In this document: one piece after another, positions 385 through 63,781 of the stretch
How positions within the stretch are numbered: position 1 is the stretch's first letter
Layout: each line of letters begins with the position of its first letter
Assembly (NCBI GenBank): GCA_017506865.1
Contig: JAFCMP010000001.1
Span: forward strand, 1,240,001-1,304,000
Origin: Tribonema minus
Taxonomy: Eukaryota; Sar; Xanthophyceae; Tribonematales; Tribonemataceae
Length of the DNA stretch: 64,000 bases
Direction: 5' to 3'
Program-made: the position numbers and the translations under genes
The notes under the pieces: generated by a model
Database searches by the model: none
What the model saw: only the letters and a program-made list of their open reading frames with translations
Told to the model about the DNA's origin: nothing

Positions 385-2643
385 CCGTGGTCAGCATGAG
401 CGTGAACGACCTGCTCGGCGCGGACGTAGAGACCAAGTGAGTGCCTTTCCGAATGTGTGGAACCGTAGATCAGATCTATGGTTCCAATGTGCTGCTGTTG
501 ACCCAGGCCTGTTCGCGCATCGCGCAGATTACTGTTGCAGATGCAGCTTGTGTACTTCGTGTTGCGCACGCACGCAACAGAAAGCTGTTCCCCTTTTTGC
601 TTTACAGTAAACTGAGCTTTTGAGAGCCGTTGATAACGTCAGACATAACATCTCTCTGTGTGTTAACTTCACATGGGGCAGTGCTGGTCAACCGAATCTG
701 TAACTCCCAAAGCGCCAACATCGACTTCACACAATTGTCTGTCCTTATTGACATTGGCACTGGCAGGGGCGTGTGGGACCCCCTGGGCTTCTCCAAGGAC
801 GAGGCCGCGCTGTTTCGCCGCCGCGTTGTGGAGCTCAAGCACGGCCGCATCTGCAGTAAGTATTGCAGCATGTCTGCATCGCTGCACTCTTTCAGGTCAT
901 GAGGTTTATCAGGTGTGCAGTACCTTGAGTCGCATTTGCCGTGAATGGAAGGCGTGTGCTGCTGCTGTGCGCCACTGTATGGGTGTGGTTGCTTATCCTG
1001 TGCCAGGATGGTCACCGCAGTGTATGCAAACCCCAGCGTCAACTCTCGGTGTGAGCTCAAGAGCTCGCACTTTCAAGAAGCGTGCGTCTGTTGCTCAAGC
1101 GCACAGCACATATATGGTGACGATATGGTGACGAAATGTTGCCCACGCATCTGTTGTTGTGTGCGCAGCGCCATCTGAAGCGCAACCGCCACACCAGAAT
1201 TGCAGTGCATCTGTCACCTCCTGGGACTGCCTCAGCCCCAGTAGCTGCCTTCCTCTTCACCGCATCGCTGCACGTCGAGATGCAACCACGTCGCCTGCTA
1301 TCACGCTCAACCCTCACTTGCTCATTTGCTACCTCAACTCGTGAGCGGAGCGCTCCCCCATTCCTCTTCACCAAAAACTGCTAATGCGACAGGACCGCAC
1401 CGCGCTGCCCTGCCATTGCATTCCGCCCCTCCATTCCAAACTTGAACTTGTGAGTTGAGCGCTGCCCCCCCCCCCCCCCCTTCCCCCCCCAACCTCCAAC
1501 CCCCTCACCCCCCACCACCCCCTCACCCCCCGCCTCAGTGCTCGCCACCCTCGGCTACCTCGTCGCGGAGGTCTACCACCCCCTGTGACGGCAAGATCCC
1601 CCTCTTCTATCATAATCATTCTACTAAGCCCCACTTACCCCCCCCTCCCCCCTGCCCCCCAGTGCTGGCTACCCTCGGCTACCTCGTCGCGGAGGTCTAC
1701 CACCCCACCCCCTGTACGACGGCAAGGTCCACCCCCCCCCCCCCCCCCCCTTCTATGTATCATCCAAATTCATTCTATTTTAACCCCCCCCCTCCTCCCC
1801 AACCCCCCCCCTGCCCCCCAGTGCTCGCCACCCTGGGCTACCTCGTCGCGGAGGTCTACCACCCCCTGTACGACGGCAAGATCCCCGCGGGCCTCGGCGC
1901 CATCTCGCAGGTCCCCATGGCCGGCTGGCTCCAGATCATCGCCGCTATCGGCGTCGTAGAGCTGACCGTCGGCAAGCAGGACTTTGAGAACAAGGCCCCC
2001 GGGGACCTCGGCTTCGGGCTCGGCTTCAACCCGTTCCCGAACGACCCCGAGAAGTTTGCCGCGCTGCAGCTCAAGGAGCTCAAGAACGGGCGCCTCGCGA
2101 TGATGGGCATCATGGGCATGATGGTGCAGGAGGGGCTCACGGGGCAGACGCCGCTCGCGCAGCTCGCGTCGGGGCACATCAGGTGCGCACGTTGCTCAGG
2201 GTTGAAGTTGGGGCTGCTGGCAGTGGTAGGATTAGGCTCACGTTGCAGATGCCGCTCGCGCAGCTGGCCTCGGGGCACATCAGGTGCGCTCAGGGTTTAA
2301 GTTAGGGTAAGGGTTGGGATTAGGGGCAGGGCTACGGTGAGGGTAGGGTAGGGTGAGAGTAGGGTTTGGCAGACGCCGCTCGCGCAACTGGCGTCGGGGC
2401 ACATCAGGTGCGTCCCCTCCCCCCCCTGCTTGAATATAGGGTCAAGGTCAGGGGTAGTGTGAGGGTCAGGCTCACGGGGCAGACGCCGCTCGCGCAGCTG
2501 GCGTCAGGCCACATCAGGCGCGTGTCCTTCCCTCCCTGCCTGTAAGTTGGGCTGAGTGGGGGTCGGGCTGAGCAACAGGGTCAGGGTGGAGCTTGTCGTG
2601 CAGCTTCACTCTGCATGATGCTTTCAGGAGGGAGCAGGACTGA
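385..2643 (+). CDS. Fucoxanthin-chlorophyll a/c-binding light-harvesting protein (Lhcf type), 5' end missing
   Basis: Antenna protein of the plastid thylakoid membrane that binds chlorophyll a/c and fucoxanthin. I read four exons, 385-436, 767-855, 1822-2182 and 2628-2643, joined in phase (2, 1, 2). From the Met at 396 they give 168 residues, about the size of a mature FCP. The first helix carries ELKHGRICML, with the Glu and Arg of the LHC chlorophyll-binding motif; the last helix carries KELKNGRLAMMGIMG, followed by LTGQTPLAQL near the C-terminus. A Cys stands where many relatives have Ala (HGRIA). The frame is open upstream of Met396 through AVVS, so the plastid presequence should lie in one or more earlier exons, probably left of the window. 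The last exon is only 16 bases and ends RREQD-stop. Intron 2 and intron 3 contain copies of the adjoining exon edges. Family assignment is firm; the 5' end and the tiny last exon are inference. Confidence 0.93.
1539..1730 (+). repeat. Two pseudo-copies of LHC exon 3 start inside intron 2
   Basis: The first 60 or so bases of exon 3 (real copy starting at 1822, encoding MLATLGYLVAEVYHPLYDGK) recur at 1539-1600 and 1663-1730, each preceded by a C-rich tract and CAG. The first copy lacks two bases and the second has a short insertion, so both break the reading frame and neither can replace the real exon. Confidence 0.9.
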
Positions 2644-2716
2644 TGCATCAAAACCTCAAGCTGGAACTTGAGCAAGTAAAGATGCTCACGGGGCAGGCGC
2701 TGCTCGCGCGATCGTC
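2236..2716 (+). repeat. Four pseudo-copies of LHC exon 3 end inside and beyond intron 3
   Basis: The last 40-50 bases of exon 3 with its 5' splice site (real donor after 2182, coding for LTGQTPLAQLASGHI) recur at about 2236-2290, 2369-2412, 2469-2520 and, degraded, 2686-2716. They are separated by G-rich spacers with TTAGGG-like words. Three keep a plausible donor; the copy ending at 2518 has CAG followed by GC instead of GT. Confidence 0.88.
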
Positions 2717-2790
2717 AGACATTGCCTGCGTACATCGCGGCTTGGGCAATGTCGATGAGCGTCTGCGCCCCGTGCAGGGCAATGTTGCGG
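2715..2790 (-). CDS. Candidate C-terminal exon of an unrecognised minus-strand gene
   Basis: On the minus strand an open stretch reads ALHGAQTLIDIAQAAMYAGNV and stops at 2717-2715. A CAG suitable as acceptor lies just before the codons for TLIDIAQ. The peptide looks like the amphipathic end of a helical protein but I recognise no family. If real, the gene would be convergent with the light-harvesting gene, stop codons about 70 bp apart. A Gln-rich open stretch at 3064-3267 on the same strand could be an upstream exon, but I cannot connect the two. The overlap with a decayed light-harvesting exon copy argues for caution. Confidence 0.25.
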
Positions 2791-15703: not shown

Positions 15704-18502
15704 ATGGCTTTGCGCAGAAGCGTCCTGGTTGCATGGCGTGCTCGGGCCTGCGTTAGCAGCAGCTGCAGGTGCGCAGCAGGAGCTGCGCGCGGGCCAGATA
15801 CAAAAATCGCATCTCGGATGACGCAGGCGAGAGCCGGATTCCACAGGCTGCGGCCTGCAATGCAGCAGAGCGGAGGCGCCGGGAGTGCCGATGGGCCTCC
15901 AGATGACATCCCCAGACAACAAGCGCACATGCTATATCAGCTGGAAGCATTAGGTGAGCTTGAACTTCATGACGAGGAACAGAAGATCCACGATCAGGAA
16001 AACGTGCTGAAATGCGGCAGTCTACACAATTGATGCGGTTAGCTCATCCTCGATACAGCGCTGGCGAGCAGCAAATCTGCTTGTCACGAACGTGACGATA
16101 GCGGCAACGCTTGTATTGACGCACATCCCGGCTCCGGGGATCGTCGTGTGATGCAACTCGCCGTCATCGACAGCCCCTGCTCATTGCCTTCGTCGAAGCA
16201 GCAGGTCACCCTTACAGCTGGAAGATATCATTGGCCTATCTCGCCCATCTCTGAGTTTCACAGCCGGGCCTCCACTGTGCCTACAGCCCCTGCAGACAGA
16301 ATTTGCTCCTGTTGCACTCATCACACACGTTAGCCTCGACGAGCTCACGGGCGCGCAGCTGCTCACTGCGCATCAAGCAGCGCACACACAGCCCTTCGCC
16401 AATAGCACTCACGTCCCAGCAAACTGCAGCACGCCTGCCAGGCCAACAACCCTCCTCACAAACTCACATCAAATCCCCTTACCACCCCCCCCCCTTCCCC
16501 GCACACACACCCGCAGAGAACACCAAGTGGCGCGACGCGCTGCGCATGCTCGACGACGCGCGCGCGGCGCGCCTCCCCCTGACGCCCCCCATGTACGCGG
16601 CGGCGCTCGCCACGCTCGCCGCGTCGCGCCAGTGGTCGCGCGGCCTCGAGCTCGCGCGCACGATGCTGGCGGAGGCGCACGCGCCAACCGAGGGAGGTCG
16701 TGCGGACGCGCTGGAGTGCGCGCGTGGCCACGCGCGCGGGCTGGCGCCGCGCGAGCTCGCGCCGTTCTTGGCGGAGCTGCGCGAGATGGGGCTCGCGCCG
16801 GACGCCGAGACGTGAGCGTCACTGCTTTTTGTATAAGTGAAGTTGCACACTTGAATTTGTCTAGGAGGGCAAGCGCGCACACGCGCTGGGGTGCGCGCAC
16901 GGCTACGCGCGTACTCTGGCGCCGGTCGAGCTCGCGCCGTTCATGGCGGAGTTGCGGGAGATGGGGCTCGCGCCGGACGTGGAGACGTGACCGCCACCCG
17001 CGGTTTTTTTGCAGTTGAAGTTGCATAATTGAAGTTGTATATGCGACGCGACGCGTCACATTGCGCGCGCCTGCCGCCTGAGGGCCGTCGCCTCTGGGGG
17101 CGGGGCTTGCCCCGGATGCCAAGACGTGAGCATCGCCGGCGGTGCTTGTCCGCGGCAGCCTGCCTGGGAGCGCGGCACACGCGCTCGCCTTGTTCTTGAA
17201 GTGCGCATCGCTTCGGAAATTGCGCTTGACCGTGCGCATCGCTTGCGCACCTTTGTGTTCCTGTGTGCTGATGCTGCCCGCGGCGGCAGCGCGCAGCGCG
17301 CGGACGTGTAACCCCTCACGCATGCTCGAACTTCACCTTCAACATGCGCATGGCGTCTCGCTCACCTGCAACATGTGCCACGAGCAGATACGGCGCGGCG
17401 GCGGCGACGGCGGCGTCGCGCAATGCGTGGGCGGAGGCGCACGCGCTGCTGCAGGAGATGACGCGGCGCGGCCTCGTGGTCGACGGCAGGAGCGCGGAGG
17501 ACCTGCTGGACGGGCTGGTCTTCGCGGCGGCGACGGCGGAGCGCGCGGAGGAGGTGCGCACTGTACTGCATATGTACTCCACTGTACTGTCTGTGAAGTC
17601 ACGAAACGAAGGGCACCATGCAGGCGGCGACGGCGGAGCGCACTGCGTGTGTATTCACAGCGAGTGAGCTGTACTTCACCAAGGAGTGAACTGCGTGTGT
17701 ACTCACAGGGAGTGAACTGTACTTCGCAAGGAGTGAACTGTGTTGTGCGTGGATTCGTGAGGCGAAGGGCGCTATGCAGGCGGCGACGGCGGAGCGCGCG
17801 GAGGAGGTGCGCTGTACCGCTTGTGTACTCACAGGGAGTGAACCTTCGTGAATTCACACAGCGAAGGGCACTGCGCTGGCGGCGACAGCGGCGCGTGCAA
17901 AGGATGTACACGCTGTGCTGTACCTGAACTCGTCCGGAGTGGACTGTTCTGTGCATGTGTACTGCCGAAGCGAAGGGGCCCATACGTGTACGCTTCGAGT
18001 GTGATCTGTAATACGTGCGTGCTTCTGAACAGAGGCACCATCTACAGGTGCATGAAGCCAAAAGCGTCAACAGAGGCGGCGGTGTATGGTGCACTCTGTC
18101 GCGGGGCGGCAACTGCGCCGCTTCAGCACAATGGCCGTTGAAGTACCCGGTTCAACGAATAATCTGAGCACCAAAACAATCTTTACAGCTAAGCTCATGC
18201 AAGGTTGCAATTGAAGGCATGCGCTGTTGCGTCCGCCGCTGCCTTTCATAAAGCTCGCATGCTCGCATGCTGCAGTGTCACGAGGCGGCCGCCGATACTG
18301 CTGCTTAAGGTGCCCTTCGCGATTGCGATCAAAGTCGCCGTTGCAGCCTCAAAGCCAACTTTCGCAACTGCCATTGCCCCTCCCTGCTCCTGCTCAGGCT
18401 CGTGAACTGTGGCTGGAGCAGACACCAGAGGCAGATGCCAAGCTGCACACAATGCTGCTGGAATTGTGTAGTGTCCTCAAGGAGGGCGGCGGGGAGGACT
18501 AG
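15704..18502 (+). CDS. Pentatricopeptide-repeat (PPR) protein, probably organellar
   Basis: PPR proteins bind organelle RNA through paired helices of 35 residues. Exons 15704-15953, 16517-16811, 17388-17553 and 18398-18502 join in phase (1, 2, 0) and sum to 271 residues plus TAG. The N-terminus MALRRSVLVAWRARACVSS is Arg-rich, without acidic residues, as in a mitochondrial presequence. From about residue 84 the protein is helical with PPR spacing: RDALRMLDDARAARLPLTPP, then LAELREMGLAPDAETYGAAA, then AWAEAHALLQEMTRRGLVVD. The C-terminal exon (ARELWLEQTPEADAKL) is acidic at its end. It has few repeats for a PPR protein, so it may be a short member or have further exons I missed. The start is the first ATG in frame. 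It runs divergently from UBAC2 and convergently with ETFA. Confidence 0.83.
16864..17130 (+). repeat. Pseudo-copies of PPR exon 2 end in intron 2
   Basis: The last 120 bases of exon 2 recur at 16866-16988, again ending GGAGAC then GTGACC, and a shorter trace ends at about 17126 (CCAAGAC then GTGAGC). If the only acceptor before the first copy (TCTAG at 16865) were used, the copy would be read out of the PPR frame, so it is not a usable exon. Confidence 0.88.
17620..17915 (+). repeat. Pseudo-copies of PPR exon 3 end in intron 3
   Basis: The end of exon 3 (GCGGCGACGGCGGAGCGCGC then GAGGAG|GTGCGC at 17553) recurs three times downstream, at about 17621-17640, 17777-17812 and 17876-17908, with decreasing likeness. 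The spacers share CTGTACT and ACTCACAGxGAGTGAACTGTA words, themselves tandemly repeated at 17640-17840. Confidence 0.85.
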
Positions 18503-18511
18503 GCACGTTTA

Positions 18512-44000: not shown

Positions 44001-44037
<37 letters not shown>

Positions 44038-50000: not shown

Positions 50001-53000
50001 CAACATGCATGAAAGTACTTCAAAGCGTTTTTGTGTTGCGTCAAAATGATCATGCCTGCCGTCACAGCGCATCGGGCGTGCTGTCAAGCGCTCGAGGTCC
50101 TTCAAGAAGGCAGTCAAAGTGCTCAAGGACAGTCAACATGCGCATTCGATGCGATCCGCCGTCGTCGTGCAGCGTGCGCGCACGCATTTGATGCGATCCG
50201 CCGTCGTCGCGCAGCGTGCGCGCAGCAGCGAGGCGAAGTGTGTGGCTGAGCGTTGCGCTTGACGCTTGGATGCAAGTCCGGGCCGCGTCGTGTACGTGAC
50301 TCCGCCTTGAAGTTGAAGTTGTCGTGCACGTGATCCGGAGACTTGAATTTGCCGACGCAGCAGCGCGGTCAGCAGCATCTCAGAGAAAGCCAGCGGGTCA
50401 GGAGAGCTGCCGAAAATGCACACGGAAATTGGGGATAATGGACAGCGGAGAGGTGATGAATGTGGACGGCCCGGCCCATTCAGGGAGGGGAAGAGTGCTG
50501 CTGCGCCGGCGATCTCCACTCTTCCGCAGCTAATTCACCTTTGTCGCGTGACCCCCCGGGATCGGCCAGAAGAACAAAGTGTTGAGCCGTGTTGTCCTGT
50601 GGCGCTTCAGGCGCACGGCACGCCGGAGATTGGCATTCGGCAGTTGGCGCGATACTTTGTGAACTTCAAACTTGAGGTACGCTTCAGAGAAGCCTTCTAA
50701 ATGTGGTGCAAACGGAGCGTCGACCTCGCTTGCGTAGCCGCTGCAGGAGGCCGCCCCCTTCGCAGGAGGGGCCCTCGCCGTCGCCCTCCCACGCGCTATT
50801 TCAAATTGTACGTTGCTTCACTTCAGAAGTGAGGTGTGCAAGGGGAGCGTCAACCTCACCTGCGCAGCCGCTGCAGGTGGTCCTCCCCCTCGCAGGAGGG
50901 GCCCTCGCCGTCGCCCTCCCACGCGCTCTCGTGGGCGCCGAGGGCCAGGCCGCCGATGTCTGCTGAGCAGTGCCACATTGGGGGTAAGGCATCATGAGGT
51001 GAAACTCAATTCAAAGTTCAAGTCAGTCAATGGCCAGCACGAAGACACTCGGTGAAGCAGCTCGAGAAGCGCGGCGCCTTCGACGCGCCCTAGGGGAGAG
51101 CGTCGTAAAAAGCGCTTGGGAGGGGTGCGCGGATGTCTGGCGCGGAACGCCGTGCTGCGCGTGGATTTCCGGGCCACGCGATGGCCCGATGCATATCGGA
51201 TTCGAGAGCCCTGGCGCGTTCACCGCGCCCTTGTGACAGTGACCAACAGGCAGCAACGGAGGGCTGCCGCACAATACCCAATGTGTCACAGCGTGGATCT
51301 TCCTGTCAAGCGATGGCACAGTGCAAATGGCACCGAGACCTCGGTGTCTTCGCCGCGCCGTCTCTGGATAAATGCAGCAACGGCACAGCAAAACTGGCAC
51401 GCGTTCAATGGCGTTCAGGGCCGGGCCATTCATACTAACCTACCTTTAGGCAGCGCACACAACTGCACACAGAAGATTAACACTGACACTCTGAAAGCGG
51501 CGTGCTACAGTTGCTGCTGGCATTGCTCTGTAGCGTGTGGAGCTCTGAGAACGACGTGCTACCATCGCTTGCATTTGGTCTGTGGCGTATTGGACTCCTC
51601 TCGAGCGTCGCTGTGCAACCAGCGCTCACATTCCCGCAACCTTGACTCGCACACCAGCAGTGCTCATCTGCAGACGGCGCGGGCTGCAAGATGTGAGCTT
51701 TTGAAAGCACTGTGCCATCGGTTTGCAGTTACCTGTGTAACAGTTACCCGTGTAACAGTCCTGATGTTCCTGCGCAAGCATCGTTGAGCAGTCAGAGCTT
51801 GCCCTGCGTCGCAACAACTCGTATGCATACTTTGTACGCATACCTTTTCTTCGAAACATATGCAAATATACTTCCATACCTTGCGTGTGGGGATACGTCT
51901 CAGAGCTCGGGCCTCCCCCGGGCGCCCCCGCCTGCGACCCCAGGCACACGTGCAGCACGCGCACCAGATCCGCTGCGGCAGCAAGCATCAATGGTAACAC
52001 ATGAGGACACTTTGAATGGTATTTCAATGTCCTAAAAAGATAACAAGCAATGCTGAACTAACAAGTACGGCAAGCACAGCTATGAGTAGGGAGTGCAAGT
52101 GGCGGCGCCGGTCAACGGGTTCGAGACGTGCTGCCACGGCTTCAGCAACTCTCGTTGATCGCGCGTTGGCATTCTTGCGACTACGCGATCTGCCGGTCTG
52201 GGCAATCGTGCTTGAAAGAAAACCATGATTGATCGTGTATGCGTCTGTTTCAATGTTCCGCAGGCACCAGCACTCGGAAGCATGAACAGACCCGCTAGTG
52301 GCTGTAGTCTGAATCTTCTAGATGGTTTATTGATTTTGTGTCGAGTGATGCCTGTGTACACAGCGTGTTCACCCTAACTTCAAGTGCATTGCGCGGTCGC
52401 CCCTGCGACCCGCGCACGCCTGACAGCATGGGCAGGTGAAGCAGCCGAACCTGTCGCGCCGCCACTGCAAACGGATTCACGAATTCATGCCAGCGCGCCG
52501 CGCGGACCTCTGCACGCCTGCCAAGCAATGCACGCCAGTACCGTATATGCAAACAACATGGTTCCGCAGTGCCCATTACAAAGTCACTCTGCTTCTTTTG
52601 CAATTCATGCCCCTGTCACAATTCATGCATTCGCACCTGCGCGCGCGGCGTGCTTGCGCGCCACGTGGAGCGCTGCGGGGCTGCTGCCGCCCGCGGCTGC
52701 CGGTCCGGCGTCGAAAGAGTAGGCCGGCGCCGCGGTAAGGGCCCCCATCCACGCCATCTCGCGCTGAGGCACAGGCAAGTTCAAGTTGAGTTTTAGGAAT
52801 GCGGGGGGCAGTGCGAATGGATGTGAAGTGCGCATTGACGCGCAGCAGTTCAAAAGATGAGCCATGCAGCAGACGCGGTCAGGTAAAGCTTCAATGTTGA
52901 AGTCCGGTATTAAAAGGGGGGAGCGCGCGCTCGTGGAGCAGTGAAGCAGCGCATTCCATGTGAACAACGCAGGGCAGGTCTGCATGCCGGCGCCAGTGAG

Positions 53001-56000
53001 GCCCTCAGGCGGGCAGGTTGAGGTAAAGCTGCGCCTCAGTCACTGAACACATTTGTCGCGCAAATGCTGTTTCTGAAGCGTTCAACGATGGCCACCGTTC
53101 GCGCTTGTACTTTATGCAGCATGGTAGGCGCATTGAAAAGCGCGCGCATGTCGGTGTGGGTGGGGTGCGGGGGGGGGCGGGGGGTATTTGATGCTATACG
53201 CTGCGACGGCACATGCAGGGGGAGCCGCGCCCCATGCCGCATGCCTTCATGCCATGCCCGTGCGCTGAGGCGAAGCGCGGGGGGGGGGGGGGAGTGAAGC
53301 TAGCACCTTGAAGCACGACGCCGAGGGATGAGCAATGCATGCAGCCTATTTCATGTACTTCGAAGTGCATAATTCATGCCCGGTAGGATTGCCCACCCTG
53401 GCCGCTCCGCTGCGATGGCAAAGTCACGTTGCCGCCGGGAGTCGCCTACTTCATGTCCAGTGGGGAACTTGCGCACACTGGCCACCCTAGCGTGATGGCA
53501 CAGCATGCATGCTTCTATATGGAAACGAATCAGAAGATCGTTGAGCTCTAGCTGACAAGGTGAGCCATCAAATTGAATGCCTTCCACCAATGACCATGGA
53601 CGCCGCTGCTGCGGCAATATATAATTCATGCCCGGTGGGATTTTGCGCCCTGGCCGCTCCGTCATGATGACAAAGACACCTCCCAGCAGTCTCCCGCTTA
53701 AACTCTTCAAATTTCTCACCTCGCTCCCCGTGCACGACGACAGCAGGGGGTCCCCGCCGTCGGGGGGGCAGACCCCCGTCCCCGCCGCGAGCGCGACCAG
53801 CTTGGGCATGCTCAGCAGCGCGGCGCACTGCCGCGCACTGAGCAGTGACACGGCCAGCCGCAGCACCTGATGAATGAGAAGGCGCGCGCGCGCAGGGCGA
53901 TGCAAGCTGGGCTGAGCCGCTGAGTGACTTTCAGTGGGCAGTTTCACGATTGAGGACGGCGCGTGCAGAGAGGCGCTCAGCAAGCTCAGCAGCGCGGCGC
54001 ACTGCCGCGCGCTGAGCAGCGAGACCGCCAGCCGCAGCACCTGACAAACGGGGACCATGCGCATAATGGGTACCTCTTGCAAGCCCACGGGGCAAGTTGG
54101 CAGTGTGCCAGATCACGCCTCGTGCTGACAGGCAGCCAACGAGTGCTAGGCACAGCTGCAGTAGAGGCGATAGCTGGCAGGCACAGTTGAAAGACAGACG
54201 AAGGCGCACGCGCACGGCAATGCATGGTGGGCTGGAATTCATCTTACAGTACCCAGGCAGCGTTACGATTGAGGACGGCGCGTGCGGAGCCCAGCAGCGC
54301 TCAGCAAGCTAGGCAGCGCGGCGAGCAAGAAGCGCGGCGCACTGCCGCGCGCTGAGCAGCGAGACCGTCAGCCGCAGCACCCGAGGAACGAGAGAGCGCG
54401 CATGCGTGGCCTTGCACGCTGGGCTGAGCTGCTGAGTGAATTTCAGTGGGCAGTTTCACAATCGGGGACAGCGCGCGCGGACCTGGGTCGAGCTCGGCAG
54501 CGCGGCGAGCAAGCAGTGCGGCGCACTGCCGCGTGCTGAGCAGCGACACGGCCAGCCGCAGCACCTTAAGAACGAGAAGGTATGCATGCGCGACGACGCA
54601 CGCCACGTTGAGCCGTTGCACAGGGTTTTCAAGTGCGCGGGTCGGTGTTTTGTGGACGGCACATACAGAGCTGGGGCAAGCTCGGCAGTGCTCAGCAGCA
54701 TGCGACCCGACGAGGCTAGAGCGCGCGGCATCGGGCGCGCTTCGCTGAGCTCCCGGATGCCACAACACAGTCAGTGGGCTTGGGTAGGCTTGATTTTGAG
54801 AGTACCACGCGCGGCGGCTCACGGCCGTGACCGAGGGGGGCCGTCGTTGCGGCGCTGAGCACCCGTCATCCTGCCTGCGCGATCGCGCAGCGCAGCCGTG
54901 CGCTGAGCGCTGACGGCGTTCGCAGCAGCGCTCAGGGCCCAGGCGCGCACGGCGCGCGCGCTGGCTGCGCCAGTGACATTAACGTGAGATTGGTGGAGGC
55001 AGGTCAGCGATCAACCCTGATCCTAACCCTACCCCTAAGAACCGCAGCGACGCATGCGGCGCAGAACCGCAACCCTAACCACAACCCTACGAACCACAGC
55101 GGCGCGTGCGGGCGGGAGCAGCATCGCAGGGGGAACAGGCGTCGCGCAGTGAAATGTGAGAAAATGCGGAGAGAATTCGGACACGAGGCAGCGCAGTGCA
55201 TCACTTGCGGTTGTCGGCTGGCTTGAACCGATGACACTAGATTCGGGCGTGCAGGTGCAACGGAGCCCTAGCTGGTAGGCAGGACAAGGAAATTGACATT
55301 GCCATGCGTGCAGGCACAACGGAGTAGCACTCACGCAGTTGTGGACAAGCTTCACTTCTGGCCCCCACATGCACCTGCAGCACTACGCATTGCAGCGCGC
55401 TAAACCGCGTCGCCCCCCGCTGCGGCCACCGCCGCTGCCGCTTCAATCGCTACCTGAAACCTATCAGCCACTTCAGCGCCACACGCAACAGGTCTCAACA
55501 GTGCAACTCATTCATGAAGGTTGCAGCGGCAATTGCGCACGCATGGTCAGAGTTAGGGTTTGGGTTAGGGTGTGGGTTAGGATACCTCTAGCAGCAGCGC
55601 CGTGGCCTTGCGGCGCAGCGGGTCGCAGCACGCGGTCACCGCCAGCGCGGTGAGCGCCTCCACCAGGCCGCACTGCAGACGTCAAGCGGTGACGCGCCCA
55701 CGGCAAGAGGCGAATGGCTGGTATTAGAAGACGACAGCAGACTAAGAAGGGTATCGGGTACTTCAAGAAGTATTCTGCGTTGACTCTGAATGAAAAGGAA
55801 ACGTAGTGGAGCAGCCACAGCGGCTTGTGACAAGGCGGGCATATTGTCGAGTGGGCTCTGAGTTGGAGCAGGTGATGCACGCTGGAGGGAAGAAGAACAG
55901 CCTCGCATTGAATGACGCAACGCACGCAACCCATCATCAGGTGCACAAAATGCAACTGCAGCGTGGCACTCGAATAAAAGCGCATCAGACGAACTGCGTT

Positions 56001-56421: not shown

Positions 56422-56476
<55 letters not shown>

Positions 56477-59400
56477 CTCAGGAGGTGAGGACGGCACGCC
56501 ATTGGGGGCGGGCTGCCGCGAGGAGCGTTGACGACGGGCACGGTCGCTGAGCCAACCGAAGGGAAGTGCTCGGCATATGCAGACATGAAGACATGCTCTT
56601 GCACCCAAGAATAACATTGACTCAAGAACGACCAGATAAGGAGAACGCAGGCTGCATTATTTGCCGAGTAGTATGACTTTGAAGGGACTTCCGTGCAGCG
56701 CTTGCACGCAGAGGGGGCTCAGCCGCTTGAAGCCGGCACAACGGGACCCCGCTCCACCGTCAAGGCACTCTCTGCGACACTTCAAGTGCTATTTCAAACA
56801 GTCTGCACGTGGGCACACTGCGTTCTGTGTGCACGCTCCGCAGGCGCGCACGTCGCCGCATCGAAGCCATTTGCACACAGCGCACAATGAGTGCAGCAGC
56901 ACATCTAGCCCTGGTTTCAGCCCGAAACCTAAGCTAACCTCATGGGCGCACGACGATGGCAGCAACACAGCGCACCCTAAGTGGACCTAACCCTAACCTA
57001 ACCTCAGCTTTGACCCAAGGTGTCAGTCGCCGAGCTCGGCGCGCACTCGCAGGGCGGGATGAATCTGCACATAGTCGGCCACGAAATTTCCTGCTCCCCC
57101 CCTCCACACACACACACACACACACACAAATAACTTACTTCAAAGTATTTGTAGGCGAGTTTGAAGATCGCCTCCTGAAAGTCAGTGAGCAATGTCGACT
57201 CGTCAACTGCCGCGCGTGGTGTGGCGCATATTTTCAGGGGTGCCAAAAGCCAAGCGCATTCACAACTTGAACACACACCGCCGCATGGCGCACGCACGCA
57301 CGCACGCATCAGCAAATTGCGCGCAGCGCCATGCCACATACCATTGGTTGAGAGCAACGCACTCGCGGAGCTCTGATGTATGAGGGAGCCCATGCGAACC
57401 ATACCCATACGTACCTGCGGGTCAACGGGGTCCAATGGGGTGCCTCCGCACGCTCCGGTCACCTGCATGGCCAGTGCGGGCAACCAACATTTGCTGTTAC
57501 ATTGCGCTAAATAGATACTTGGACACGCGTACATGCACACTGCACCATACCATGCCAAACTGATCTGCGTCTGATTCTGCGGTGCGCCCGCGCAGGCTCC
57601 TCCAGCGCAGCATGTCGATGGCCTCGCTTCTCTTTTCTTTCTTGTTTCTCCCCCTGTCCACTGAGCGTACATCTCAGCTGCAGGTTTGCTCAAACCGGCA
57701 AAGGGTGCACAGGTGCCCACGGAAGTTGTGTTGTGAAACCACCCTGAAACTGAAAGCCAATGGGAGGGGGTCTCACGCTCGGATTGGCATACAAGCAGTC
57801 GGATACACCCAAGAAGACGCCCAAAAACCGGGCCTGGTGCAGTTTTCACGCGCCATCAACAGCTCAGCAACTCAATCGATCAGTTCAACAAGCGCACGCT
57901 TATGATTTTGACAAGATGGTAGGTCAATGGTGCTAAGATGGGGCTGTACAGGCCTCGTCGCGTCCTCCGAGGACTCCATAGTTTCACCCTGCATAGCGCT
58001 GCTGCATTCTGCGCCATCAAGTCAACTCGTGTATTCGCGGCATCAATTCATCGAGGCAGACGGGGCGCACTCGTGTCATTGCATCCATCAGCGTCTCCAG
58101 AATCGCATCCTTCAGCGCGCTCGCCAGTTATATTCATGAGCTGGGTTATTCGACCGATCGATTCGTTTCGAGAAGCAGATTCATCAACTCATCTGAATTG
58201 ACTCATCAGTCCATATCAAAAGGTGGTGTGGCCGTACCGGCGTCATCACGTCAATCAGCGTCTCTAGGATCGCGTCCGCAGAGCGCTGACCCCCGAGTTA
58301 ATTCATGACCTCATATGATCTGACTCATCAGTTCATCTTTGTTAAAAGGATGTTGGGGCCCTATCACGTCCATCAGCGTCTCCAGAGTCGCGTCCTGCAG
58401 AGCGCTCGCTGATTACATCCATGAGCTGGTTTCATTTGACCAATCGACTCATTCTGAAAAGCGAATCCATGAACTCATCTGACTTGACTCGTTGACCCAT
58501 CAATTCATAACTTCAAAGCTTTAGAAAACGTACCGGCGTCATGACGTCCATCAGTGTCTCCAGGATCGCATCCTGCAGAGCGCTGCCGCAGCCGCCGCCG
58601 TCGTCGCCGCTCGCGCGCGCGCAGCCCGCGCCCAGCGACGAGCACTGCTGCGGCGCATCTGACGCCCACGCCGCGGAATCGCTGAGCAGCTGCACGAGGG
58701 TCACCAGACCCCTGCAGTGGGGGGAGGTGAGGGGGGGGGCGTTAAAGGGGTTCAGGGCCCGCTCAGCAGCTGCGCATTGTGCAGTATACAAGGGTCAACA
58801 GACCCCTGCAGCGGAGGGGGGTGGGGTGGGGGGTTCAGAGACTGGCAATGCACAGCAGCTGCGCTGCGCAGCCGCTGCGCAGGGGCTCGCCAGAGCCCTG
58901 CTGCGGGCAGGGAAAAAAAGGACGGGGCCTCGGTCGCGCCCGCTTGGTGTCGTTGCGCTTTGCAGTGCGGCGCGCGAAAACCGCTGAGGCATGCCGCACG
59001 AGCGATGCTCACTTCTCATAATAGGATGTTGGGGTGAGGGCTCAGAGTTCGAGAACACGCAGCGCTGCCGGGCGCTGACGCTGCGTTCGGCGCCGGCCTC
59101 GCTAAGCCGCCAAACGGGGGGGGGGGGGGGGGGGGGGGGGTCGTCGCCCCTCTTTGTCAAAGGGAGCAGGGGCTCACTAATTCATCAAGCGAGGGACTCA
59201 GCTTCCAGGTACAAGGCACGTGAGCTGCGCGGCCTGCCTGCTTGGCGCCGCTGAAGCCCAAAGAGAGCGGGCACGAGGGGGGGGGGGGGGGTCCAGAGGG
59301 GCCGGCACGCAACACGTCACTGTCGCATTACATGGGATCTGTGGACTGTGGTATGATGCCTGGTGATGTCATCTACGCCGGTGCTGCGTGCCGTGCTCAA

Positions 59401-62400
59401 ATGACATGATTCTGATATTGGGTGAGCTGTATGACCACCAAGTCACTGCCACTCGCATTGGGTCAGGGAGCAGGATGATGCCCGACCGCGTCCGCATGAG
59501 CGCGGCAACGGCGCCGCGCGCCACGCTGAGGGTACTTGTCCTACCTCACTGAGTTTGCTATATTGTGTTGAATGCGCAACAGACGCTCAGGGTCGCAAGA
59601 GCTGTGTGGCCGCTGCCTGCCAGCAGGAGGTGAGTCATCGCATGGCGCATGGCGCGTCACACGCGCGTGCCTGCGGTCTGCAGCCAGCGGCATTCTGCTG
59701 CCCGATCACGTCCTCATGAGTGCAACAACACATATACACATATACAGATGTGTCGTACATGCATAACATATGCCGCACATTCGTTCGAGCAAATCTACAA
59801 AAAAAAAGATACTTCGCATGCATATACGCACCTGGGATCCGCGGCGAGCAGTATGATTCCCGACCACGTCCGCATAAGCGCGACGACGGCGCCGCGCGCC
59901 GCCTGCCAGCGCTGGTGCCTCTCGAGGCCCGCGGGCCAGTCCGTGTCGGTGAAGCCGCTGAGCAGCTGCTGCAGCTCCACACCGGGCCTGCACATGACAG
60001 TTGCAAGTGGCAGTTGCGTACTTGAAGTACTGTGTCACGCCGGGCCTGCACATGACGATCGCAAGTGACAGTCACGCATAATCCTGGGTGCAAGGGCCAT
60101 GTCTGTGGTGATGCAGGTGATCCACCGCACGCGCGCGTGGTACGAGCTCTGAGGCATATGGAGTACGTTGGCCATTCCAGCGGCCTATGCAGACGTACTC
60201 GAGGCATGCGGCAAATGGCGGTTTCAGTTACGACGAGGGCCATGTCGAGGTTGCTGGCGGGTGCCGGCCCCACTGTGTAGATGCCCAGGAGCTGCAGCTC
60301 TGCTCCGCGATGTGCGTTCCAATGGCGAATACAGTCAGCCTGAGGGGCCATGTAGGTATGTAAACCTCGTCCCCCCCCCCCCCGGGCCTGCAGCCACGTG
60401 CCGGTACTTGCGGCCATGCGGCGCAGGGCGAGGTGTACGGCTACGAGGGCAAGCGCACAGGCCGCACTACGGCAGCAGGACGGACAGCGAAACGCGTGCG
60501 CGAGCGCGCCGCAGTGTACACGCAGCAGGCGGGGGGAGACGTGCCGTCACTGCTTACCAAACAGAACATAGTGGAATGTGACGGCGCCTGCAAAGCAGTT
60601 GAGGATGCTCAGGAGCTGCCATGCCAGGCGCTGCCCCTCGGCCAATGGGCGCTGCGTATTGCGCGGCGAGCGCGAAGTGCGCTCCCATACAGAGCCTCCA
60701 AGGTTCAGGCCCGGCCCCGTTACTGCGTCCGCTGAAGCGGACGACGAGCCACTCCAGCGACTCCACACTACTGCAGTTCACCACACCAAGCACGAGTGTC
60801 GTCTGCTCTGCCGAGCTGAGGATATGTCACTGCGGCAGCCGTGTGCCGCGCCCAACGGCGCAGGCCAAACGGGGATCGGCGCGCAAGCGACGGAGCGTGC
60901 CGCGCGCACGGCAGAAAGGCGGAGGCACGTTCGGCGCATCACGAGTGCACCTGCTCTGTTTTGAGGGCATCCGTACCTACCCTGCTGACACGGCAGCGCT
61001 CAGCACGGTTGCACGCCTCTGCGCGCGGCGGCGGCGGCCGAGTGGCACTGAGGGGGGCCGAGCACTGCGCTCGCTGCCGACGCATCGCTGTGCAGCAGGG
61101 TGCGGGAGTCGTGATAATCCGTACTCGTGAATGAATGTGTCGGGCAATCCTCAGCGCGGTGACACGCGGTCACCTGGGGGGTGGAGCGCTGCTGCCGGCG
61201 CGTCGTCACCCAGCAGTACCGGTACGGTGATGCGGAGCGGGAGTGTAAACTTCAAGAACTGGTAGTCGTAGAGAGCGTGTCAGCGCTCACCTGATGAACT
61301 GGCGCGTGCTGGGGTCCTCGAGCAGGAATGTGATGGCCGACAGGAGGGGGTCCACGAGGTCCTGGGAGCACGGGATCACGAGCGCAAAGAGAATGTGAAG
61401 TTGGCCACGTTCGATCTTGGCAGGACCATGATGACACAATGTATGTTGAACTAAATTGATGCCGCTGAGTGAGGGGCTGGTGGAATCGTCGGACCCGGGC
61501 AAGAAATATCTGAAACCGCATGTACGTCTACTACTGCAGGTCCACGAGATCCGGCTACGCAAACTTGAGCGCGATGCGTGCAGCGTCACAGGCAATGGGT
61601 GTACGTGGCAGCGGGGTGTATGTGAAGGACGCCACGCTGACTTGCAAATGATCCTGACTCGAGACCTAACCCTACACGCGGAACTGCATCAGCGAAATGC
61701 CAGCAGTTGACTGTGGTCCTGTGCGACGCGATTCTGCACCGGAATGGCAGCGCGCGCGCCCTGCCGCCAGGATGCATATAAGAGTCCAGCGCTTATGGTT
61801 GGGGTGAGTTCAATGCGTAGCTAGTGACAGGTGGCAGTGAGCCTTCCCTCCTGCAGTCCTCGGTGCACAATTTCGTTTCTCATCCGCAGCTCTACATCTG
61901 GCCCTGAAGTGCTGAGCGCTTGACACAATGTCCACGCGGTCGCCATTGGCCGTTGGGATTCGGCTTGATTGGCGCCGTGGCCCTCTGTTGTACGCAATAA
62001 TGGCGTGTCCCCAGACCCACCTTGCCCTCTGCACTCAGTTCACGACTCGTTCCAGACTGCTGCGTCTGTAGCGATGCATCAAGCACTGCGCACGCTGCAC
62101 CATCTGGACATAGAGGCCGCTCCGACTCACAAGCTTGTTCAACGATCTCTTGAAGTTGAGGTATGGACCTCAACATGTCACCTTGTGTGCTTCACATCAC
62201 TCACCGGACCTTACCAGACACGCGACCTTGTGTCTGGCCCACCAGGTCTTCATTGAGCTCATCAAAATCATGTGCTGCGTCACACCACGCTGCCGAGCGC
62301 TGACCTGTGTGGCGCGGTCGAGGTTGGCGCCGAACAGGCATCGACGCCGTTGGCGTTTTCTGGCGCATCCACTGCTTCTCATACACACCTTCGCACGCTC

Positions 62401-63781
62401 GGTGACCAGGCTCGGAACATTGTGCCATGCCCACTACGCGGGTCTTTGTGAAAGTCATCGAAGCTCACCTGCGTGGCGGGGTCGAGGATGGCGCCAAACA
62501 GGCACCGGAAGCCGCTGTCGCTTTGTGGGGTAACTAGTTTCTTTTTATGCCTTAGAAGCAGCAACACTTTGTTGCGCGTCTTTGAAAGTCAGCAAAGCTC
62601 ACCTGTGTGGCGGGGTCGAGGATGGCGCCAAACAGGCAGCGGAAGCCGTTGACGCATTGTGGGGTGGAAGTATAAGGTTAGCTGACCAGGCTCGCTACAG
62701 TCTTTGTCGTGACCACTAAGGAACATCATTACTTCGAAGTATTATAAGTCATCAAATCTGACCTGCGTGGCGGGGTCGAGGATGGCGCCGAACAGGCACC
62801 GGAAGCCGTTGACGCGCGCGACGGCCTCGGGGCTGCGCACCGATAGCTCCCTGCGCACGCGGCAACGACGACGACGGCGGTGGCAGCAAGAGCGCAGCGG
62901 CAGCGGCAGCGGCGTCAGCTGAAGCGCGCTGCCAAACAAAGCACTTTCCTGTGCCCATGCAGTGCGCTAGAAAGGTGGCGCGCCGACCGGCAGTGATGCC
63001 GTGCAGCCAAGGAGCCCGCTAGGGGGTCGCGGGGCCACAATGCAGTAGTGTCGTGTGCACCCGTGCAGTGCGACAGCGCGGTGAAGCGTGCTGCCATGCA
63101 CTGGGGCTTTAATGTGCCCGTGCAGTGTGGCGGGCAACACAGCAGCAGCAGTGCCATGCAGCTGCGCACCGACAGCTCCCTGCGCGCGCGGCAACAACGA
63201 CATCGATGGCGGCAGCACGAGCGCAGCGGCAGCAGCGGCAGCGGCAGCGCAGCGGCGTCAGCTGAAGCATGCTCAATCAGCAGCACTCTCCCATGTGCCC
63301 ATGCAGTGTGGTAGGAAGGTGGCGGGCCGATTGGCAGCGATGCCGAGCGCCTGAGGAGCGCACTAGGCGGTCGCGGGCTACGCAGCAGCGGTGCCGTGTG
63401 CGCGCGTGCAGTGCGACAGTGGGGTGAATAAGCTGCCACCCTGCCGCACAGTAGCACATTCATGTGCCCATGCAGTGCGGCGGCAACACAGCACCAGTGT
63501 CGTGTGCACCCGTGCAGTGCGCTAGCAAGGGGGCGGGGCGATGCGCCACGGTGCGCAACCACCCCCCCCCCCCCCCGCGCCGCCTCTCTGGCGCTGCCGC
63601 ATGGCTCAGCAAGTACCGCACGCTGTAGGGGTCGCGGTTTGGGGTAGGCATGGACGTGAGGCTGGGAGCCGAGGTCTGTACAGACATTCCGCCCGCAGAC
63701 CTGAGCGCTTTCTTGATGATGGCAACAAAGGGCTGCAGCGTGTCGTGCTCGGCGCTCCGCTCGCCGCGAGGCGACAATGGC
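32583..63781 (-). CDS. RICTOR: RICTOR (TORC2 scaffold subunit), about 31 kb, 5' end probably beyond the window
   Basis: RICTOR (Pianissimo, Ste16, Tsc11) is the scaffold that defines TOR complex 2, the kinase complex acting on AGC kinases and the actin skeleton. I placed 33 exons. Those from 62850 to 32583 (31 exons, 4,399 bases) join in phase at every intron and give 1,465 residues plus TGA; exons 63701-63781 and one starting at 63622 precede them. Order and motifs follow human RICTOR from memory: SPEAVARVNGFRCLFGAIL, LLEDPSTRQFIR, LMRTWSGIILL, VLATKDFTKWDWEVI, RMTAGYIALLMGVAARDEHG, MRFLSIPEGAALL, THLYGELAKTEAG, RRAAAWSLASIAQSQRGL, and the C-terminal LPMRRFVHEMFDDI. Exon coordinates are in the five block entries. 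Human RICTOR is about 1,708 residues. One gap near 62.9-63.6 kb and one optional exon near 57.05 kb remain unresolved. Confidence 0.93.
35175..35735 (-). repeat. Tandem array with an exact 146-bp period upstream of a RICTOR exon
   Basis: The start of exon 35036-35220 (GCCGCGTGGTCGCTGGCCAG, minus strand) and about 100 bp of intron repeat at 35175, 35321, 35467 and 35613 (position of GACTGAGCGATGCTGG), an exact spacing of 146 bp. The first three units are almost identical; a fourth is diverged and a fifth relic begins near 35753. Each copy retains CTGCAG plus ACGCCCGCAGGGCCGCC, that is a splice acceptor and codons for DARRAA. Confidence 0.95.
35853..35878 (+). repeat. Poly-G tract
   Basis: A run of G broken by a single C, in the intron before the exon at 35036-35220. 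Read on the transcribed strand it is a C-tract upstream of the acceptor. Confidence 0.9.
36916..43493 (-). CDS. RICTOR: RICTOR block 4: conserved loop helices plus a lineage-specific insert
   Basis: Exons 43377-43493, 42717-42844, 42187-42259, 41357-41480, 40786-40901, 39578-39752, 38561-38826, 37442-37750, 36916-37049. The first gives DCGALLMRFLSIPEGAALL, nearly the human KGLLLLLRFLSIPKGFSYL, and runs into MEWHRSGCGAF (human KWHREYNSKY). The last gives LPLPTHLYGELAKTEAGSAI (human YLPIHLYGQLVHHKTGCHLL). Between them seven exons encode about 390 residues without counterpart in the human protein: RIRGEIVDSQGKPTCHPVES, the Pro/Gly/Ser-rich SAAGSYHAPY-like stretch around 38600-38780, and FLKAVEFTLSLECGG. 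All nine exons are in phase with one another. The insert may be a structured lineage-specific domain with disordered flanks. Confidence 0.85.
37058..37142 (+). repeat. GGC/GCC microsatellite next to a RICTOR acceptor
   Basis: Imperfect GGC trinucleotide array with AGC and AGT interruptions. It lies immediately upstream (in transcript sense) of the acceptor at 37050, where the transcript shows (GCC)n, acting as the pyrimidine-rich tract. Confidence 0.9.
39028..39503 (-). repeat. Three copies of RICTOR exon 39578-39752 in its downstream intron
   Basis: The 3' two-thirds of the exon (ESHLTLHVRMCVGASAVDRY) with its donor recurs at 39503-39376, 39290-39222 and 39146-39028. The first copy is open across the whole segment and ends TATCAG then GTACGG, so it could in principle serve as an alternative exon end if an acceptor existed. 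Confidence 0.9.
39920..39982 (-). repeat. Copy of RICTOR exon 39578-39752 start in its upstream intron
   Basis: Codons for TVRIRGEIVDS after CAGCAG recur at 39982-39940, directly followed on the minus strand by a piece of the later codons (HPVESHLTL). The copy therefore lacks a central part of the exon. TTAGGG repeats lie at 39879-39900. Confidence 0.85.
42612..42657 (+). repeat. Poly-C tract
   Basis: About 40 C broken by one or two T, in the intron downstream of RICTOR exon 42717-42844 (G-run in transcript sense). Confidence 0.9.
43597..43800 (-). repeat. Two copies of RICTOR exon 43377-43493 start in its upstream intron
   Basis: The exon start (GGCCGACAAGACTGCGGAGC, then TGCTGATGCGCTT) recurs at 43664-43597, again after a CCCCGCAG acceptor, and in weaker form at 43790-43750. 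Both are followed by GGAAGT...CAACTTC words that also occur after the real segment. Confidence 0.88.
44225..48291 (-). CDS. RICTOR: RICTOR block 3: central region
   Basis: Exons 48166-48291, 47520-47596, 46630-46810, 45708-45941, 45262-45373, 44225-44588, all in phase. LLEAQINRSKVLATKDFTKW then DWEVIEDAL matches human LLINLRDSQVLQHKENLEWN; TKWVKRLSGYFR matches the VRRLLYFYKP segment; ALLRHAEGRAFLAADRRGAI matches EFLLESEEDGQGYLEDLV; RMTAGYIALLMGVAARDEHG matches HYFLFIGTLSCHPHG; FVTRLVVAHLDPGRL matches LLKLTVSSLDYSRDG; EVRAAAVAALIEAAADARHL matches ISSEALDILDEACEDKANLH. A Gly-rich insertion sits in exon 45708-45941. The last exon ends CAG|GCGAGT, a GC-AG intron that keeps the phase. Confidence 0.93.
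44637..44659 (+). repeat. Poly-G tract forming a C-rich pyrimidine tract
   Basis: G-run on the plus strand; in RICTOR transcript sense it is part of the C-tract 50-70 bases upstream of the acceptor at 44589. Confidence 0.85.
46345..46460 (-). repeat. Copy of RICTOR exon 46630-46810 3' part in its downstream intron
   Basis: The second half of the exon (LRCGARLHAALLRHAEGHAF) with the codons GALFQETSK and donor recurs about 285 bp downstream. It is open in the same sense, about 85-90% alike, which makes it the best-preserved exon-edge copy in this gene. Relics of the exon start lie at 46935-46905 and 47135-47105 upstream. Confidence 0.88.
47623..47643 (+). repeat. Poly-G tract
   Basis: Run of about 20 G; in transcript sense a C-tract about 25 bases upstream of the RICTOR acceptor at 47597. 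Confidence 0.9.
48060..48165 (-). repeat. Short tandem copies of a RICTOR 5' splice site
   Basis: Directly after the donor of exon 48166-48291, the 20-24 base unit GAGTGACTCATGCxTGAAACC repeats four times (minus strand). Each unit retains GTGACTC-like donor sequence. Two more isolated relics occur near 47900 and 47775. Confidence 0.85.
48441..49065 (-). repeat. Four copies of RICTOR exon 48166-48291 start in its upstream intron
   Basis: The acceptor and first 35 bases of the exon (GCAGCTGCGGGTGTCCATGG) recur at 48480-48441, 48645-48590, 48915-48868 and, worn, 49065-49035. Three of them are followed on the minus strand by CCCTAACA-like sequence, and three of the spacers contain ACTTCGAAGT-type palindromes. 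Confidence 0.9.
49513..49903. repeat. Large inverted repeat with arms of about 190 bp in a RICTOR intron
   Basis: Left arm 49513-49690 and right arm 49705-49903 are inverted copies with almost no loop. Both contain GACGGCTCAGCAGGATGCCC, GGCAGACCTGGCCATG, GCTTAAAGG and CCAAGGAGCGG in the same order. It sits in the 2-kb intron between exons 50343-50406 and 48166-48291. Both arms read as Ala/Arg/Lys-rich open frames, an effect of composition. No transposase or terminal signature was recognised. Confidence 0.85.
50343..57174 (-). CDS. RICTOR: RICTOR block 2: middle of the N-terminal domain
   Basis: Exons 57139-57174 (EAIFKLAYKYFE, 36 bases), 56283-56360, 55586-55672, 53720-53866, 52637-52763, 51897-51972, 51049-51089, 50860-50959, 50343-50406; phases agree. 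NLLHPYAALLCAALVK then CGLVEALTALAVTACCDPLR and RKATALLLEVLRLA parallel human DNYLALILSAFIRNGLLEGL with ISVRATILLGELLHMA. The three exons between 52763 and 51049 and the acidic exon 50860-50959 (GLALGAHESAWEGDGEGPSC) are supported mainly by splice sites and phase, less by conservation. SPDPLAFSEMLLTALLRRQI leads into block 3. An open stretch at 57070-57025 (FVADYVQIHPAL) could be an additional exon but does not fit the phases I read. Confidence 0.78.
50728..50795 (-). repeat. Copy of RICTOR exon 50860-50959 end in its downstream intron
   Basis: The last 70 bases of the acidic exon (codons for AWEGDGEGPSC) recur 130 bp downstream, slightly altered and ending CTACGCAAG instead of CTGCGCAG. Confidence 0.88.
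53975..54575 (-). repeat. Three copies of RICTOR exon 53720-53866 start in its upstream intron
   Basis: The exon start (GTGCTGCGGCTGGCCGTGTC, coding VLRLAVSLLSARQCAALL) recurs at about 54045-53985, 54385-54335 and 54568-54505. Spacers share a GGGCAGTTTCACAAT...GGACAGCGCGC segment. All copies keep the CAG or AAG before GTGCTGCGGC. Confidence 0.9.
56372..56475 (+). repeat. CAG/CTG microsatellite abutting a RICTOR acceptor
   Basis: About 30 CAG units with a few CGG and CAT interruptions. The transcript carries (CUG)n ending some 10 bases before the acceptor at 56361, so the array occupies the polypyrimidine-tract position. Confidence 0.92.
57103..57128 (+). repeat. CA/TG microsatellite
   Basis: Thirteen CA units in the intron after RICTOR exon 57139-57174; (TG)n in transcript sense begins about 10 bases after the donor. 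Confidence 0.92.
58080..58410 (-). repeat. Three copies of RICTOR exon 58534-58711 end in its downstream intron
   Basis: The exon end (GCGATCCTGGAGACACTGAT then GGACGTCATG) recurs at 58405-58365, 58290-58238 and 58110-58080. Units of 130-160 bp also share TCATGAGCTGG and GACTCATC words. Confidence 0.9.
58534..63781 (-). CDS. RICTOR: RICTOR block 1: N-terminal HEAT-like region
   Basis: Exons 63701-63781 (HDTLQPFVAIIKKAL), one starting 63622 (VRYLLSHAAAPE, end not resolved), 62763-62850, 61291-61361, 59832-59987, 58534-58711. The last four join in phase and match the conserved N-terminal domain: ELSVRSPEAVARVNGFRCLF against human ELALQNPEVVALRGGLNTI; DLVDPLLSAITFLLEDPSTR against EALITTILHLLNHPKTR; VELQQLLSGFTD and MRTWSGIILLAADP against VELERILAPYTD and FRSWAGIINLCKP; RGLVTLVQLLSDS and LQDAILETLMDVMTP against IQSLIGVL and LLEVLYDIF. 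About 90 residues expected between RYLLSHA and ELSVRSP are missing and should be in 62.86-63.6 kb, which is instead filled by a tandem array. Confidence 0.9.
59115..59140 (+). repeat. Poly-G tract
   Basis: Uninterrupted run of about 26 G in the intron between RICTOR exons 59832-59987 and 58534-58711 (C-run in transcript sense). Confidence 0.92.
59455..59725 (-). repeat. Two copies of RICTOR exon 59832-59987 end in its downstream intron
   Basis: The exon end (GGCGCCGTCGTCGCGCTTATGCG) recurs at 59530-59455 and, with more changes, 59725-59670. The start of the same exon has a short relic upstream at 60060-60040 (GGCCCGG after TGTGCAG-like sequence) and near 60390. Confidence 0.85.
62300..62660 (-). 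repeat. Three copies of RICTOR exon 62763-62850 end in its downstream intron
   Basis: The exon end (TTCGGCGCCATCCTCGACCC then CGCCACGCAG) with donor recurs at 62655-62602, 62516-62470 and 62346-62302, spacing about 130-165 bp. Two of the copies continue with GTGAGCTTTG, the third with GTCAGCGCTCG, unlike the real donor GTCAGA. Confidence 0.92.
62851..63592 (-). repeat. Tandem array around the first RICTOR exons of the window
   Basis: Two to three long units. The words GCGCACCGAxAGCTCCCTGC at 62836 and 63165 mark a spacing near 330 bp, and GTGCCCATGCAGTG or close forms occur at 62951, 63115, 63296 and 63466. The unit includes a copy of the acceptor and first codons (ELSVRS) of exon 62763-62850. 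A RICTOR segment of about 90 residues is expected here but I could not find its exons. Confidence 0.75.

Follow-up and report, generated by a model that had tools for sequence, protein, structure and literature searches.

Decaying local copies of exon edges in introns of the xanthophyte Tribonema minus

Introduction

How do existing introns lengthen, and how does an intron come to hold several copies of the ends of its own flanking exons? The question is raised by a stretch of 64,000 nucleotides from Tribonema minus, a xanthophyte of the PX clade. This whole stretch (C1:1240001-1304000 of a genome of 158.18 Mb in 554 contigs) is referred to below as the window. To our knowledge, intron lengthening without transposons is poorly documented. 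Internal gene duplication and tandem arrays reportedly contribute to introns (work of Gao and Lynch in 2009 and of Zhuo et al. in 2007), and the cases are said to concern arrays of whole units or newly formed introns, as opposed to degraded copies of an exon's own edge.

Intron gain by tandem genomic duplication (TGD) is an established process, reviewed in PMC3443670, where an exonic AGGT is duplicated and gives rise to a new intron. The table of that review lists 188 unambiguous events over several species; cases are described in Drosophila (PMC2891723) and in potato (PMC4974935). Here we describe copies of exon edges in the window and in three gene families beyond it, and weigh the explanations for them.

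Materials and methods

Genes beyond the window were picked by profile matches to the LHC, chaperonin and kinesin families. The loci fetched comprise 34 stretches, the window and eight short loci, which cover part of the matched genes. Fifty introns were modelled by homology; 47 passed the splice score, and the 46 of at least 200 nt (median length 646 nt) were used for the edge tests, one intron of 179 nt being excluded. The counts exclude three introns with a splice score below 7.3, one exon pair without a model, and any exon pair separated by more than 3.5 kb or by a profile gap above 16. Four HMM matches (C5:353415, C135:208473, C511:562024 and C246:701357) represent edge copies and were kept off the exon lists.

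The spliced chaperonin fragment on contig C5 has 355 residues identical to the NCBI T-complex protein 1 gamma of Tribonema minus, and that on contig C135 has 368 residues identical to the annotated CCT-theta of the same species. Eight intron models reproduce residues of public gene models, with annotated proteins as the basis; among them are introns in which eight copies of the donor edge (seven with GT) and six of the acceptor edge (five with AG) were counted. Tested on its own training introns, an ab initio gene finder recovered 33 of the 47 introns and 85 of the 94 sites. It merged genes and therefore was not used to compare intronic with intergenic DNA.

Exon-edge copies in the window

Self-comparison of the window reveals abundant local direct repeats, which form 35 clusters, versus none in a Markov-shuffled window. 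Two of the 35 are coding ankyrin repeats, not introns (5.9-6.6 kb and 27.8-29.5 kb). The ankyrin-repeat reading frame at 27818-29535 (plus strand) is a coding tandem array with a 105-bp unit in about 15 copies, and in the second such frame, at about 5919-6600 (minus strand), the coding sequence is a tandem array as well. Thus, tandem expansion reaches coding DNA too where the frame is kept.

The second exon of an LHC (chlorophyll a/b-binding) gene, at 1822..2182 on the plus strand, has given rise to copies in both flanking introns; it was assigned by a PF00504 match at C1:1241824-1242132 and by modelled splice sites. Two acceptor-edge copies lie upstream on the same strand, at 1503..1595 (about 58 exon nt, 93% identity, AG kept) and 1638..1726 (about 60 exon nt, 93%, AG kept). 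Downstream there are three clear donor-edge copies and a weak one, including those at 2235..2306 (49 exon nt, 90%, GT kept), 2368..2412 (40 exon nt, 96%, GT kept) and 2469..2551 (49 exon nt, 85%, GT changed to GC), all on the plus strand.

The ETFA gene lies on the minus strand, and both of its matches (PF00766 and PF01012) exceed the Pfam cut-off. One repeat cluster (21818..22311) lies over the donor-side end of its coding segment 22288-22389, matched by PF00766, and another (23856..24230) over the acceptor-side end of segment 23774-23905, matched by PF01012. Positions 23486-23521 hold six CCTAAC copies with 83% matches, which we take to be an interstitial telomere-like repeat.

In the RICTOR gene, also on the minus strand, domain V is the only Pfam match over the cut-off (PF14668, E 4.8e-9), domains M and N being below it. 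The domain V exon, at 35036..35210 with predicted splice sites, is accompanied by four acceptor-edge copies at 35320..35810 (starts at 35320, 35466, 35612 and 35752). With growing distance from the exon they are 100, 97, 94 and 88% identical to it, and AG is kept in the first three. The copies are about 146 bp apart, and TRF reports a period of 146 at 35174-35767; this array is young. A donor-edge copy of the same exon is found at 34706..34767 (minus strand, 89%, GT changed to GC).

Further copies accompany predicted exons. On the plus strand, exon 16517-16811, whose gene has no Pfam identity, has a donor-edge copy at 16927..17019 (86%, GT kept). On the minus strand, exon 50860-50959 has one donor-edge copy (50706..50789, 90%, GT changed to GC), exon 53720-53866 has four acceptor-edge copies (53981..54955, 76-92%), and exon 58534-58711 has four donor-edge copies (57946..58406, 73-91%). 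Two donor-edge copies (59454..59729, minus strand, 74-87%) belong to exon 59832-59987, with a RICTOR_N match just under the cut-off, and three (62300..62655, minus strand, 89-91%, GT kept in all three) to predicted exon 62763-62850, with a weak RICTOR_N match.

The repeat clusters cross the expected sides of the ETFA and RICTOR segments, except for the RICTOR stretch 45702-45944, where no copy was seen and the ends read as non-splice sites. The arrangement described in the original prediction, with exon ends copied after the donor, exon starts before the acceptor and the splice sites included, is thus seen in LHC, ETFA and RICTOR, and on both strands, as had been claimed (plus for LHC, minus for ETFA and RICTOR). 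Two other genes that it named, UBAC2 and PPR, were not identified by Pfam in the 30 stretches scanned.

Frequency of edge copies and controls

The enrichment extends beyond the window. In the 46 modelled introns, the own 50-nt exon edge is copied within the same intron at 24 of 92 junctions, divided evenly between donors (12/46) and acceptors (12/46). The same edges match foreign introns in 12 of 1840 comparisons (Fisher p 6.5e-25 for own versus foreign introns, the foreign draws reusing introns and so not being independent) and the reverse strand in 0 of 92. Many introns have one to eight decaying copies of the adjoining border, and in many cases an additional splice site that looks intact. 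Genes of unrelated function are involved, as predicted: edge copies were found at 2/10 LHC, 13/50 chaperonin and 9/32 kinesin junctions. Independently of these models, the protein profile tables contain additional matches in which an exon edge recurs beside its exon, also on contig C51, which is not among the fetched loci.

The wider wording of the original prediction, that every spliced gene has such copies and that its introns are filled with them, did not hold. At least one detectable edge copy is present in 20 of the 46 introns, and 26 have none; the proportion by gene ranges from 0/12 to 4/4 junctions, one chaperonin gene having 0/12 and another 6/10. Repeat clusters take up 39% of intron bases. 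Introns with edge copies are longer than those without (median 779 versus 557 nt, p = 0.02).

For ab initio junctions of the window and 20 other loci, an edge copy was found at 27 of 157, with controls of 17/1570 in foreign introns, 1/157 on the own reverse strand and 0/72 for exon middles. Copying falls off into the exon in successive 50-nt steps (24/92, 8/88, 2/69 and 2/49). Local copies are present for 168 of 615 intron windows (27%) versus 7 of 140 (5%) in 3' flanks, defined as the 1 kb downstream of seven likely gene ends, which were hand-picked from 16 as plausible C-termini. The same test gave 284/3276 for noncoding parts of LHC loci and 2/600 for foreign sequence. A control with stop-codon edges was set aside as too weak: the 16 rows that had an in-frame stop, only about ten of which look like true gene ends, all stayed below 17 (the highest was 15), but two other scores in this table, in which the final 50 nt of the match were compared with sequence beyond it, were 31 and 25. 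The minimum spacings of 108 repeat clusters range from 60 to about 520 bp, and 78 of them fall within 80-199.

Paralogous genes and the direction of change

A paralogous LHC gene on contig C79, with 89.7% identity over the matching stretch, shares the intron but has none of the copies. It has one acceptor and one donor region, and its sole self-match is between the two exons. The gene in the window exceeds it by two acceptor-edge copies and by three or four donor-edge copies. Growth in one lineage is the simpler reading of this one pair, although loss on C79 is possible. In this pair no new intron has arisen at an exonic AGGT: the paralogue has the intron without copies, and the duplicated units include existing intron sequence.

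Several observations were made on the LHC loci in passing. C1:1236836-1242132 and C79:1257616-1261236 form an inverted duplicate of an LHC gene pair, in which coding sequence is about 90% identical and most intron sequence is unalignable. By eye, the donor of LHC exon 2 (2182) is shifted by ~11 nt relative to the matching exon end in the L010 paralogue, possibly by intron sliding beside copied donors. Three LHC paralogues on contig C554 (stretches L017 and L018) have exon stretches 91-97% identical; two of their introns are alignable (83% over 1170 columns including exons) and the third is not, a sign of fast intron turnover. A 532-nt stretch is 100% identical between C490 (L016 2757-3288) and C554 (L017 3804-4335), perhaps through recent transposition or segmental copying.

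Proposed origin of the copies

We propose that pervasive local tandem duplication, with a unit of about 90-200 bp, is tolerated in introns and across their borders, and that the copies then decay as noncoding sequence; we consider this explanation probable. The genome would continually make local tandem duplications of about 90-200 bp. A duplication within coding sequence would break the protein and mostly be lost. One that falls inside an intron or across its border could be tolerated, the extra copy becoming intron, because splicing from the exon-proximal donor to the last acceptor leaves the mRNA unchanged. Tolerated cross-border duplications would then leave copies of exon ends after donors and copies of exon starts before acceptors. 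Some copies may seed arrays of 2-8 units, and repeated unit edges suggest that such arrays grow by slippage or unequal exchange. The copies and their decoy splice sites would decay as noncoding DNA, with the spliceosome presumably ignoring the decoys.

The duplication mutation itself is a supposition that fits the copies, their polarity and local origin, their concentration in introns, their one-sided presence in one paralogue pair and the decay described below. In this form, general intron growth by cross-border tandem duplication, as originally predicted, stands in large part, being backed by locality, polarity, noncoding decay and the paralogue without copies. The parts that would limit it to borders and extend it to all genes do not.

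Are exon-intron borders special?

Intron interiors are also duplicated. With growing distance from the edge, windows with local copies number 24/92 (the edge itself), 18/92, 51/164 and 75/264. Interior windows are thus copied about as often as edges, and the borders take part in an intron-wide process. This is what would be expected of plain neutral duplication without any border preference, the border copies being prominent since their exon side does not decay. We regard such an origin as a real possibility, though not the one that we expect.

Several counts of cluster positions bear on a border preference. Of 34 clusters in modelled introns, two, with offsets of 1000 and 1284, were discounted as spurious; 24 of the remaining 32 extend at least 10 nt into the exon and eight do not. 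Coding-segment ends, as predicted ab initio, are crossed by 37 of 108 clusters, versus 21.3 +- 4.2 after permutation (maximum 33 in 300). When exons were masked, 15 of 24 clusters abutted a splice site. The expectation is 12.4 with estimated ancestral intron lengths, in line with neutral duplication, and 7.2 with present lengths, which is not; a border excess is therefore seen in this test only under present intron lengths. Compared with ordinary minisatellites, whose placement would be independent of gene structure, the picture is mixed: introns exceed 3' flanks and coding ends are enriched, while the exon-masked result varies with the assumed intron length.

In a first simulation, run with four settings of uniform duplication, edge fractions came to 8.7-16.0%, versus 26% observed. 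Later simulations included slow exon decay, with or without deletions; their parameters were chosen rather than fitted, and differences between genes were ignored. Uniform duplication predicts fewer edge copies than deep-intron copies. The observed ratio of edge to interior copies was reached in 1 of 120 replicates under a uniform rate and in 0 of 72 with deletions (1/192 together). A border bias of 2 reached it in 16/120 replicates, or 25/72 with deletions, a bias of 3 in 59/72 (with deletions), and a bias of 4 in 81/120. With a bias, however, exon bases 50-100 are copied too often in the simulations (0.07-0.37, in most cases at least 0.13, versus 0.09 observed).

A border bias in duplication is thus likely, if unproven: the simulations support it, while the exon-masked test does not show it clearly. 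We infer that border-spanning units would exceed interior ones 2 to 4-fold. A stronger version would make the borders duplication hotspots, at which transcription- or splicing-linked copying of 90-200 bp proceeds several times above intron interiors and flanks and drives the long introns here, and perhaps in relatives, with the spliceosome reliably taking the outermost site. We put this forward tentatively and hold it to be rather doubtful.

Make-up and decay of the copies

The exon part of the copies measures 13 to 135 nt per junction (27 junctions), with a median of about 50-58, and the intron part is of similar size; one outlying exon extent of 271 nt comes from a match that does not touch the junction. 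The units thus straddle the splice site at varying points. A fixed unit edge at ~58 nt into the exon, suggested by 14 of 50 copies with 56-61 nt, was rejected on the spread of 13-135 nt per junction. Some arrays are contiguous, the match length exceeding the offset; not all pairs are so, and many repeats are shorter than their own offset. For some cases simple contiguous tandem duplication therefore needs later indels.

Most copies are 5-25% diverged from their source and contain indels. Over all copies, identity is not significantly correlated with distance from the functional site (rho -0.17, p 0.19). The splice-site dinucleotide is aligned in 59 of 64 copies, and 48 of the 59 keep GT or AG: GT is kept in 26 of 33 donor copies, with GC in four more, and AG in 22 of 26 acceptor copies. 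Seven intact donor copies lie in one CCT-gamma intron.

Such numbers could point to a splicing function, the extra donors and acceptors being kept for factor recruitment or for regulation, such as alternative sites coupled to mRNA decay. By position, as raw proportions, GT is kept in 57/64 (0.89) and AG in 40/42 (0.95), versus 0.86-0.91 for neighbouring exon bases. Retention of AG is slightly above that of exon bases, as such a function would have it, but GT is kept no better than they are. Since the dinucleotides are kept at about the exon-base rate, neither purging nor preservation of the decoys is clearly indicated; they decay like their surroundings, which also agrees with neutral duplication. 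Moreover, the annotated CCT-gamma and CCT-theta proteins fit the exon-proximal splice sites only, and 26 of the 46 introns have no detectable copy. We hold a splicing function to be improbable.

The copies contain coding sequence, and 22 of 58 are gap-free in their exon part, as might be expected of spare or alternative exons produced by exon duplication. However, only the edge of the exon is copied (the median exon part being about 50-58 nt), and 29 of the 58 copies are frameshifted, the gap being a multiple of three in the other seven. Mismatches by codon position are 119/1063, 124/1077 and 178/1072, positions 1 and 2 diverging equally. The original prediction had read broken frames as a sign that the copies are not spare exons, and the frameshifts and codon-position divergence bear this out: spare exons were rejected and are very unlikely indeed. 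The copies look like noncoding relics.

Introner-like mobile elements or other dispersed repeats at splice sites would be a conceivable source, introners being reported in 5% of species searched (PMC9860276), yet each copy resembles its own exon, foreign introns match in those 12 of 1840 cases and no sequence family common to introns of unrelated genes was found; this source was rejected and is extremely improbable. An assembly artefact is hardly credible: the analysis rests on assembled sequence, but mis-assembly would give near-identical copies, not the identity spectrum seen at many loci, on which this explanation was rejected.

Discussion

The process that we favour, local tandem duplication tolerated in introns and across their borders, resembles TGD in that gene sequence is duplicated locally, the duplicates are in tandem with their source (contiguous arrays, though not all pairs), and the mRNA can stay unchanged while the duplicate becomes intronic. 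In contrast to TGD, existing introns appear to lengthen here, the duplicated unit includes a border that was already present, and about a quarter of the sampled junctions are affected. The introns differ from those attributed to internal duplication or tandem arrays in that degraded copies of each exon's edge lie in the adjoining intron. Introner elements likewise add intronic sequence across whole genomes, and do so in diverse eukaryotes (PMC9860276); unlike the gene-specific copies described here, they copy themselves into many genes.

Long introns are described as typical of the related brown algae (PMC12477816). In Ectocarpus, which belongs to the same wider PX clade, the median autosomal intron of 524 bp (PMC12477816) is similar in length to the 46 introns modelled here. 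In contrast to Tribonema minus, tandem repeats are described there as relatively even over the genome, and the part of PMC12477816 drawn on here deals with intronic transposons and does not mention border copies. A study of Chlamydomonas introns (PMC8226300) has, in the corresponding part, no bearing on border copies. No description of existing-intron growth at this scale was found in titles and abstract openings of the open-access literature, outside which most subscription papers lie.

Our results suggest that local duplication accounts for part of the intron growth in this alga, whose splicing machinery would then have to pass over many near-identical decoys. Intermediate stages of intron growth are visible, as the copies can be aligned to their sources and set beside paralogues. 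Because a single intron may contain as many as seven intact, near-identical donor copies, these genes also offer a natural experiment in splice-site choice; in the two annotated genes checked, CCT-gamma and CCT-theta, only the exon-proximal site is used, according to the protein annotation.
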